Source: Acidovorax sp. sic0104 (GTDB lineage Bacteria; Pseudomonadota; Gammaproteobacteria; Burkholderiales; Burkholderiaceae_C). Taken from it: DNA of 64,000 bases. The notes below the pieces were generated by a model. The model was given only the letters and a program-made list of their open reading frames with translations, searched no databases and had not been told where the DNA came from. The stretch is taken from NCBI RefSeq assembly GCF_019219095.1, contig NZ_JAHUWH010000001.1, positions 434,001 through 498,000 on the forward strand, read 5' to 3'. Below are positions 1 through 1,950 of the stretch, in pieces. The translations under genes were made by a program, and so were the position numbers. The stretch's first letter is position 1; every line of letters begins with the position of its first letter.

Positions 1-958
1 GGGACATTCCGAAAGCGGAGGCGGGAAGCGGCGTTCCATCCGCGCGCGCCAGGCTGACGCTGTTGACTGTCATGTAGAACCTTCTGACTGGAACAACGAT
101 GGTGTCGCCGGGCTCCGGCCCAGGCCCGATCCGTTGACAGATGAAAACAAGCCGCCCGTCGCCCGTGAACGGCTCAGTGAAGATGAGTCGCCCGACCGTG
201 GCCGGGTCGTAGCAAGGCGGTTCAGGTGGATCGACTGGCAAAGCCGAGACACCAATCCGCGGACGCTGCCCCTCCTGCCAATGCGACCGCAGAGCCCGCC
301 GCATGTGAACGCCGTCCGACCAGCGGCTGCGCACCACGTGGCGCAGGGGAGCGCCGTTCTGCCAAGCCGAGACGACGGCGTTGCGCATGCGGGTCTGTTC
401 CTGCCAAGCAGACAGCACAGCGCCTCGGCGCAGCACACCCTCCTGCCAAACCGTGAGCGCAGCAGCCCGCACGCGCTCGCTCTCCTGCCAGCCGGTTTCC
501 AGCGCCTGGCGCAGTTGAGCGCCGTCCTGCCAATGCGAAATTGCGCCGGCACGCAGGCGATCGGCCTCCTGCCAGCCGAACTCCAGCCCGCTTGCGACGG
601 GTAGGCCCTGCTGCCATGTGACGTCCACCGCAGCGCGCATCGGCTCGCCCCTCTGCCACGCCACCGCGACACCGGCCGCAAGGGGTTGCGCCTCTTGCCA
701 TCGTGTTTGCAGCTCGGCGCGCATGCCCCGGCTAACGTTTGCATCCCACTCCAGCCCGATCGCGCCGTCCAGGCCGGGCAACTCGGCGTCAATGCCGAGT
801 CGTGTGCCAGCGCGCAGCGTGAGCGTGCCCAGGCCGGGCAGGTCGCCGTCGATGCTGAGCGTGACGTCGGGCACCACCTCGTCGCCGGCATCCCCGAAGA
901 CCAGGCGCCCCGTGCCGTCGTGCGGCTGGGTGAAGACAAGTTTGCCGTCGAACTCCAC
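1..958 (-). CDS. Phage tail-type protein with 14-residue Trp repeats (partial, runs off left edge)
   Basis: Unrecognised gene, open to the window's left edge (319 codons visible). I chose the GTG at 958 because it follows the stop of the upstream gene at 963 and a GGGG run lies about 6 bases before it. Residues 1-21 carry a G-K-L-V-F-T-Q-P ... G-R-L-V-F module; two copies of a D-x-(D/E)-L-P-G-L pattern follow at about 37-63. Residues 87-227 are ten exact 14-residue units, each beginning W-Q (W-S once), often with L/M/V-R at positions 7-8; an eleventh unit is partial. The G-R-L-x-F-T-x-P ... G-R-L-V-F module then reappears, so the protein is modular. Position in a minus-strand run with small tail-like genes and an adjacent integrase remnant suggests a phage tail or fibre component; that is inference. 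The real frame contains no stop through the left edge. Confidence 0.75.
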   Translation of the reverse strand, partial: MEFDGKLVFTQPHDGTGRLVFGDAGDEVVPDVTLSIDGDLPGLGTLTLRAGTRLGIDAELPGLDGAIGLEWDANVSRGMRAELQTRWQEAQPLAAGVAVAWQRGEPMRAAVDVTWQQGLPVASGLEFGWQEADRLRAGAISHWQDGAQLRQALETGWQESERVRAAALTVWQEGVLRRGAVLSAWQEQTRMRNAVVSAWQNGAPLRHVVRSRWSDGVHMRRALRSHWQEGQRPRIGVSALPVDPPEPPCYDPATVGRLIFTEPFTGDGRLVFICQRIGPGPEPGDTIVVPVRRFYMTVNSVSLARADGTPLPASAFGMS

Positions 959-962
959 ACGA

Positions 963-1346
963 TCACCCCAGCAAAGCAGGCGAGAGCAACGTCAAGACGC
1001 CGCCCGCATAGATGGTCAGGCCAGGCCCGGTGCCCAGTAGCTTGAATGGGCCCGGCCCGTCTTCCCCGGTGACTGCCGCCCCCCAGATGGGAACGCCTGA
1101 ACCGTTGCACCACTCGCCCCATGTGGGCGTGCCGGTCGCAACCACCAGGTCATTTGCAGCCGCTGGCAGCAACTGGATGCGCCCCTCGGCCGTGATCGTG
1201 CCGCAGGGCTTGGCGAAGGTGCGCATGGCAAGCAGGATGCCGCCCGCCTCGCTGTACAGCTTGAGGGTGGACTGGCCCGGCCCGGTGTCGGCCAGTGTGA
1301 TGCTCGCCTGATTTCGAGCGCCTCGATGCGCCGAGCTGATCGTCAT
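963..1346 (-). CDS. Small phage structural-type hypothetical protein
   Basis: 127 residues, not assigned to a family. The sequence is rich in Gly, Thr and Ala with a beta-strand character (alternating hydrophobic residues, many G-x-G-P turns) and has no signal peptide or transmembrane segment. It starts with an ATG overlapping the stop of the gene upstream by four bases (ATGA) and ends 4 bases before the GTG of the repeat protein, so all three are probably translated from one message. The compact operon and composition fit a tail or baseplate accessory protein of a prophage; function is inferred only from context. Confidence 0.65.
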   Translation of the reverse strand: MTISSAHRGARNQASITLADTGPGQSTLKLYSEAGGILLAMRTFAKPCGTITAEGRIQLLPAAANDLVVATGTPTWGEWCNGSGVPIWGAAVTGEDGPGPFKLLGTGPGLTIYAGGVLTLLSPALLG

Positions 1347-1573
1347 GCAGCCTCCGTTGCGCGCACCGGGCCTGCGCCCGTCGCTTTCTGATTGCGGGCG
1401 GTGTCGATGCCCACGGCGACGTACTCCTCGCCCAGCTCCAGGCCAGTGGCGGTGTAGTAGCCCTGTTGATCGCTCCAGCCTTCCCAGACCTTGCGCCCGT
1501 CAGTCAACCGCAGCAACCACACCCTGCCACCCCCGAACGGCGATTCAGGGCTGGACGGCGAGGACTTGAACAT
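1343..1573 (-). CDS. Small phage protein with carboxypeptidase-regulatory-like beta fold
   Basis: 76 residues from the ATG at 1573; an in-frame start at 1633 would add 20 residues but would run into DNA that encodes an integrase tail on the other strand, so I prefer 1573. The core pattern G-R-V-W-L-L-R-L-T-D-G ... G-W-S-D ... G-Y-Y-T-A-T-G-L resembles the small beta-sandwich inserts (carboxypeptidase regulatory-like) common in phage tail genes, where a parameter is formatted, changed and read out on strands. It overlaps the next gene by 4 bp. It is the first gene of the surviving phage block and lies about 40 bp from the integrase remnant, so its promoter or upstream operon may have been deleted. 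Confidence 0.55.
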   Translation of the reverse strand: MFKSSPSSPESPFGGGRVWLLRLTDGRKVWEGWSDQQGYYTATGLELGEEYVAVGIDTARNQKATGAGPVRATEAA

Positions 1574-1613
1574 CACGCGGTCGCTGATCACACCCGAAGT
1601 GGGGCGTATCTTG

Positions 1614-1814
1614 TGGCACAGCACCCGGAGCATGACCCAGCACTACAGCACGGCGCAGATCGTGGAGCTGCATGGGGCACTGGAAAAGATCACCGCCGAC
1701 AGCGGCGCGTGGAACAAATCGCTGGCCACGCTGCGGGCAGAGCACCAGGCACGCCTGGCCGGGGAACAAAGTCCCCCAAAAGTCCCCACACTGGCACTGG
1801 AGCGGGTCGCATGA
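1614..1814 (+). pseudogene. 3' remnant of a tyrosine recombinase (phage integrase)
   Basis: About 66 codons read in one frame from W-H-S-T-R-S-M-T-Q-H-Y-S to a TGA at 1812-1814. The H-S-T-R-S-M-T-Q-H-Y-S stretch matches the C-terminal catalytic block of tyrosine recombinases, where the His-Ser-x begins the H/W box and the Tyr of H-Y is the nucleophile; the following A-Q-I-V-E-L-x-x-A-L-E-K-I is the usual tail helix. The catalytic Arg boxes and everything N-terminal are missing: upstream in this frame the sequence stops looking like an integrase at about 1612 and becomes the antisense of a phage gene. The fragment points at the 3' end of tRNA-Arg 60 bp away, the usual arrangement for a tRNA-integrated element. 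I infer a deletion that joined the integrase end to tail genes. Confidence 0.7.
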
Positions 1815-1835
1815 GAACGCGATCCACAAAGGAAA

Positions 1836-1867
1836 AAGCCCTGTAACTTCAAGAAGTTACAGGGCTT
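1836..1867 (-). terminator. Intrinsic terminator after tRNA-Arg
   Basis: A perfect 14-bp inverted repeat (AAGCCCTGTAACTT) with a CAAG loop. On the minus strand the stem is followed by a short T run, so it should end the tRNA-Met/tRNA-Arg transcript just beyond the encoded CCA. It lies between the integrase remnant and the tRNA, so it may be inside the attachment region. Confidence 0.8.
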
Positions 1868-1873
1868 ACCTGT

Positions 1874-1950
1874 TGGTGCGGCTGGCAGGAATCGAACCCA
1901 CGACCCCTTGGTTCGTAGCCAAGTACTCTATCCAGCTGAGCTACAGCCGC
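1874..1950 (-). tRNA. tRNA-Arg (anticodon ACG)
   Basis: 77 nt including an encoded CCA. The 7-bp acceptor stem (GCGGCTG with CAGCCGC), discriminator A, D-arm (TAGCTCAG), anticodon stem CTTGG/CCAAG with loop CTACGAA, and T-arm GTGGG-TTCGATT-CCTGC are all visible. Its 3' end faces the integrase remnant, making it the probable attachment site of the phage element. Confidence 0.97.

Follow-up and report, generated by a model that had tools for sequence, protein, structure and literature searches.

A fixed-length ladder of tryptophans at 14-residue spacing in the N-terminal arm of a prophage tail protein with a predicted hub domain

Tail hubs are among the best-studied parts of phages. Hubs of the gp27/Mu gp44 (gpP) type, to which VgrG, T5 pb3 and the lambda-type proteins belong, have a fold in common with the C-terminal ~335 residues of the family considered here. 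The phage records of that family, PHROG 6079, label its members as hypothetical or tail proteins and mention neither hub nor ladder. Electron microscopy shows one of these phages, Acidovorax phage ACF1, to be a siphophage (PMC8851203), and the homologous protein p48 of phage MuM16-1 was detected in virions by mass spectrometry (PMC8541194). Periodic Trp and Phe residues have been described in another kind of phage tail protein, the tape measure proteins of phages p2 and TP901-1 (PMC5099701), and in the open-access literature no account was found of Trp recurring every 14 residues in a tail protein.

The window, that is, the whole stretch of 64,000 nt analysed here (positions 434,001 to 498,000 of contig NZ_JAHUWH010000001.1 of Acidovorax sp. 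sic0104), begins inside a gene for such a protein. A minus-strand frame starting with the GTG at 958 is open to the window edge and belongs to a gene for 624 amino acids, which is complete in the wider contig (C11); residues 1–319 are encoded within the window (1..958, minus strand), and the remaining 917 bp lie to its left, with the stop at C11:433084. A profile search against phage proteins assigned the whole length of the product to PHROG 6079 ("tail protein"; E 6.6e-146; residues 7–622, profile positions 6–603 of 605), and PHROG 1887 matches its C-terminus; no model of Pfam or NCBIfam covers it. An earlier note, made from the letters of the window, had taken the protein to be of phage tail type, which profile, synteny and hub fold bear out, but had not recognised the family; this is now resolved as PHROG 6079, with a C-terminal half, outside the window, of the gp27/gp44 tail hub type. 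That note had also reckoned with a non-coding or frameshifted relic; the 624-codon frame is intact, although the surrounding prophage is a remnant.

Relatives are widespread. By tblastn, 33 phage records match, including Acidovorax phages ACF1 and ACPWH, Curvibacter phage PCA1, Stenotrophomonas phage S1 and phages of Pseudomonas, Shewanella, Vibrio and Psychrobacter. A match was also found in 36 of 301 genomes of the same bacterial family, and 45 of 398 genomes of a phylum-wide sample match the PHROG, many across the hub part only; close relatives occur in Ottowia, Variovorax and Xenophilus. In ACF1, PCA1, S1 and MuM16-1 the gene order is the same: a tape measure gene is followed by other tail genes, the hub gene and a gene of ~75 codons. 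At the window locus the tape measure gene has been lost.

The hub gene lies in a prophage remnant of 10.5 kb (window 1–1918 and C11:425365–434000, the latter corresponding to L003 9365–18000), which is flanked by two identical 46-bp attachment-site repeats from the 3′ part of tRNA-Arg (window 1873..1918, unstranded; other copy C11:425365–425410). It contains umuDC-like genes, an ATPase-like gene and genes for a D12 DNA methylase, a DUF1353 protein, an endolysin, a 74-aa protein, the hub, a 127-aa protein and the truncated product of an upstream tail gene; head, tape measure and complete integrase genes were not found in these 10.5 kb. The 127-aa tail protein is encoded directly upstream of the hub gene (963..1346, minus; phrog_3758, E 3.5e-4), in the same place as ACF1_65 and the “virion structural protein” of PCA1. 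A deletion has truncated the tail gene that comes next upstream, leaving its C-terminal end (1343..1600, minus), residues 12–96 of ORF 1343–1633 matching the C-terminus of relatives with up to 75%. At about position 1600 it is joined to the likely 3′ end of a tyrosine integrase gene (1599..1814, plus), proposed by eye from the motif HSTRSMTQHYS..., for which Pfam gave no match and the loci compared no homologue; ORF 1343–1633 is thus a chimeric frame of 96 aa, and the junction indicates a probable loss of the head, tube and tape measure genes by deletion. Elsewhere in the remnant, genes for a UmuD-like peptidase S24 and a UmuC-like polymerase stand side by side (L003 10421–12178, plus), and a 491-aa protein (L003 12316–13791, minus), which has no PHROG and resembles ORC-CDC6-like/AAA proteins weakly, at a score that does not reach the Pfam cutoff, adjoins a 256-aa protein with a long Ser/Pro tail; the two are possibly prophage cargo.

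The hub fold was read from a model of a full-length homologue, L092, built with 68 relatives, to which the window protein aligns across the hub with few gaps. Residues 295–629 of L092 are mostly predicted with a pLDDT above 90, and by alignment the hub domain of the window protein begins at residue 288 (1..97, minus, continuing left of the window). Foldseek matched the L092 hub to 3d37 (E 4.9e-18), Mu gp44 (1wru, 6.0e-15) and T4 gp27 (1k28, 1.6e-12), and VIA-align matched it to the phage Milano hub 8fqc_C1 (Z 22.0, rmsd 3.5 over 298 aligned residues) and to Mu 9ki1_G (Z 20.3). At the level of sequence the likeness is faint: the family profile reached Mu gp44 (1wru) with an E value of 0.39, and single-sequence searches found no similarity to a solved hub. 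Because both structural comparisons place the L092 fold with gp27, Mu gp44, VgrG and siphophage hubs, the C-terminal half of the window protein can be assigned with confidence, by way of the model, as a predicted gp27/Mu gp44-type tail hub.

N-terminal to the hub lies an arm of ~290 residues, in which module A, two 20-residue repeats, eleven 14-residue units and module A′ follow each other. Module A (GKLVFTQPHDGTGRLVFGD, residues 5–23, 890..946, minus) has the pattern LxF..P....LVFG, in the window protein GKLVFTQP..GTGRLVFG (residues 5–22); in the family alignment F9 and F21 are invariant, L7 and G22 nearly so. The two repeats of 20–21 residues (DVTLSIDGDLPGLGTLTLRAG and TRLGIDAELPGLDGAIGLEW, residues 31–71, 746..868, minus) were seen in the translation and have similar counterparts in relatives. 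Module A′ (GRLIFTEPFTGDGRLVFIC, residues 256–274, 137..193, minus) reads GRLIFTEP..GDGRLVFI (residues 256–273), with L258, F260, L270, F272 and C274 nearly invariant. Modules of the A type also flank the ladder on both sides in S1, HS6, MuM16-1 and NVP2096O. In Vibrio phage 2.096.O, an 84-bp tandem repeat (L271 1919–2141) encodes copies of module A; since it is protein-coding, its annotation as “CRISPR spacers” looks like an artefact. No solved relative of the arm was found by sequence, nor any domain model, and the Pfam repeat models, including the YadA-type 14-residue head repeat, gave no match to residues 1–287 at E values up to 10, in a scan whose filters drop weak matches. One Pfam match, N36, covers 22 residues below its own cutoff and was judged spurious.

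The eleven units (residues 87–240, 239..700, minus) each begin at a Trp, and these stand at residues 87, 101, 115, 129, 143, 157, 171, 185, 199, 213 and 227, giving ten exact 14-residue intervals; the first bases of their codons run from window position 700 down to 280. Ten of the dipeptides are W-Q and one, at 213, is W-S. A further Trp, Trp71, is off-phase, 16 residues before the first of the ladder. When the N-terminal 287 residues were shuffled 20,000 times, the longest exact-14 run of Trp obtained was 4. The unit profile is V/A/L, x, S/A, R, W/F/Y/H, Q, E/D, A/G, x, R/P, L/V, R, A, G/A, yet the units share merely 35% of their residues on average, so that what is kept is the spacing; their DNA is 51% identical on average, against 29% in shuffles, and TRF found no tandem array in it. 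Taken together, these values indicate an old repeat and not a fresh expansion. Two candidate copies outside this gene were rejected: a second ladder in the same genome, suggested by a DNA match on contig C55, was a chance match in an ordinary chromosomal region, and a stand-alone repeat protein (G677 C10) was the antisense of an unrelated protein with a perfect 14-residue repeat, DSGYFQTKQGRDVA. The unrelated protein with this repeat, in near-perfect form, lies at L272 3360–4055 (plus) and has 231 aa and a signal-like start; its antisense frame had falsely matched the hub family.

Length and phase of the ladder are kept among relatives. Measured from Trp71 to Pro233, or between their counterparts, the ladder region spans 160–168 residues in all 98 sequences compared (the window protein and 97 relatives) and 163–165 in 84 of them, which means that the number of units does not change. 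Pairs of aromatic residues in the same 98 sequences peak at lags of 14 (526), 28 (494) and 42 (357), while other lags give 10–135, the highest of these beside multiples of 14. Units of equal index are more alike between proteins (0.38–0.48) than units of unequal index (0.30–0.36), so the units are old and individual, with no ongoing exchange or multiplication. A 14/15-residue aromatic ladder recurs in phage S1 and further siphophages of Gammaproteobacteria; in 25 non-redundant proteins of the S1 clade, most Trp stand 14 or 15 residues apart (lag 14, 186 pairs; lag 15, 84; lag 29, 140). Taken singly, the proteins of S1 and Psychrobacter phage Y8A exceed all of 500 shuffles and Hali ties with the highest; matching shuffles per 1000 number 1 for NVP2096O_35, 13 for HS6 and 26 for MuM16-1. 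For UFOVP, Shewanella phage 1/44, AS1, PCA1 and several members from genomes, the individual ladder is not significant against shuffles; in these the length is kept and the aromatics are partly replaced.

The arm evolves faster than the hub, and its spacing and aromatic positions are constrained where the remainder is loose. Identity is 44% in the N-terminal region versus 85% in the hub, and the median dN/dS among close relatives is 0.31–0.36 versus 0.08–0.15 (pairs are not independent, and in the S1 clade, where dS is near saturation, the ratio is rough). Conservation of Trp across the aligned N-terminal positions is 88% in the S1 clade, against 5–68% for most other residues; for the PHROG 6079 clade the Trp value is 54%, as Tyr, Phe and His also occupy its place. 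Two relatives, L072 and L073, have a hub 66–69% identical to that of the window protein and a shorter arm of quite different sequence, a combination that points to arm and hub having been exchanged as domains. The earlier note had described W-Q at strict 14-residue spacing, with diverged DNA, flanking G-(K/R)-L-x-F-T-x-P ... G-R-L-V-F modules on both sides and selection acting on the protein. All of this agrees with the present results (for selection, the fixed length, the dN/dS of the N-terminal region and, in the S1 clade, Trp as the best-conserved residue of that region), except that the repeats it called exact are so in spacing and not in unit sequence. A breakdown of the spacing in close homologues was looked for and did not occur.

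How the arm folds is less certain. The explanation that accounts best for the data, to which we give about an even chance, is a siphophage tail hub with an arm of fixed length that would be beta-structured and probably trimeric. Over the segment from −8 to +1 of the ladder Trp the hydrophobic moment is higher at 180 than at 100 degrees (0.56/0.30 in the window protein, 0.42/0.20 in the family, 0.51/0.14 in the S1 clade), although a lesser peak at 90 degrees remains (0.41 in the window protein). Such strand-like alternation is compatible with a trimeric beta-spiral or another trimeric shaft of ~15-residue units. Pro and Gly, present in most units of the relatives, likewise speak for strands joined by tight turns. 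The repetitive beta or helical shaft with a Trp stack that had first been guessed is thereby shifted toward beta, and the constant unit number is unlike the usual shaft of variable length.

The arm could instead be a long alpha helix, three of which would form a coiled coil at the hub. A unit of 14 residues equals two heptads and one of 15 a pentadecad, so that the ladder Trp would come back to the same core position at every fourth turn. The consensus WQEA suits a helix, and AlphaFold2 drew residues 90–212 of the window sequence as one helix, with a pLDDT of about 90 over 130–200, and a weak helix in the arm of L092 (pLDDT 50–69), though these models of the arm are too unreliable to serve in a fold search. 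We think a coiled coil of this kind unlikely, as the preference for alternation over a 100-degree period speaks against a helix, and so do Pro and Gly: the repeats of the window protein contain 4 Pro and 12 Gly, the family has on average 5.7 Pro and 10.4 Gly per 143 residues, with up to 18 Pro, Pro recurs at +5 (23%) and Gly at +9 (31%), and 93% of the S1-clade spacers contain one or the other. Similarly improbable seems a tether that is extended or for the most part disordered, where every Trp would be a short binding motif and dock into one of a series of similar sites on a second tail protein. It would explain the low pLDDT of the L092 arm, the low identity relative to the hub and the free divergence of positions other than Trp, but hydrophobic residues recur at −2, −4 and −8 as well, a feature that a bare motif could do without, and no partner with matching repeats was found. 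Regular repeats in a tail-tip protein recall a fibre shaft that gains and loses units; this has very little probability here and is contradicted by the constant distance between the anchors in all 98 sequences and by the greater likeness of units of equal index. That the ladder is accidental, or a relic left in a prophage gene under decay, as its place in a remnant without head or tape measure genes might suggest, is already refuted by the conservation of the spacing among relatives, intact phages included, by the shuffles and by the intact frame.

Under the preferred reading of a beta-structured arm, each unit would most likely be one amphipathic beta strand (L-x-A-x-V-x-S/A-x-W-Q) followed by a tight turn (E/D-A/G-x-P/R), and the ladder Trp would occupy a repeating core position. 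The C-terminal ~335 residues would form a trimeric ring closing the tail tube, as the T4 gp27/Mu gp44-like fold family suggests, and the three arms of one hub may pack into a beta-structured element of fixed length. By analogy the arm would be located at the tail tip; the position is an analogy because the hubs of JBD30 and T5 differ in domain layout. There it might organise or close the tip or bear its cell-facing surface, exposed positions varying while spacing and Trp stay fixed. Two A modules in each of three chains would, speculatively, give six equivalent contacts, suited to a threefold hub meeting a sixfold ring. Possible, but to be held tentatively, is the wider proposal that the arm is a new repeat architecture, a fixed-length trimeric Trp-laddered beta element on the hub N-terminus in siphophages of Comamonadaceae, Stenotrophomonas, Pseudomonas, Shewanella and Psychrobacter, which would keep the tip closed or rearrange on cell contact.

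The fixed Trp ladder is a real and conserved feature of a known kind of protein, in a form for which no description was found; the hub assignment is ordinary, the ladder is not. A widespread hub lineage carries this arm, which raises the structural question of what role eleven evenly spaced Trp have at the tail tip, and the assignment allows proteins labelled “hypothetical” or “tail” to be re-labelled as hubs.

Compared with known systems, the ladder differs from the aromatic repeats of the p2 and TP901-1 tape measure proteins in its period (14, not 11/18), its constant unit number and its place in a hub, and a tape measure assignment was rejected on the period and on the separate tape measure gene of relatives. 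The PHROG 6079 phages ACF1, ACPWH and PCA1 have the whole-length match, modules, arm length, gene neighbours and C-terminal hub in common with the window protein; the ladder of ACF1, however, mixes Trp and Tyr. Gp21 of Stenotrophomonas phage S1 and its relatives, with a PHROG 1887-like C-terminus, have the C-terminal hub, a 14/15-residue Trp ladder and the two flanking modules, but mix both spacings, contain more Pro and Gly and are about 28–31% identical to the window protein. None of the matched gp27/gp44-type chains covers the ladder arm, which the fold search hardly tested; several known hubs extend C-terminally, whereas the extension of the window protein is N-terminal.
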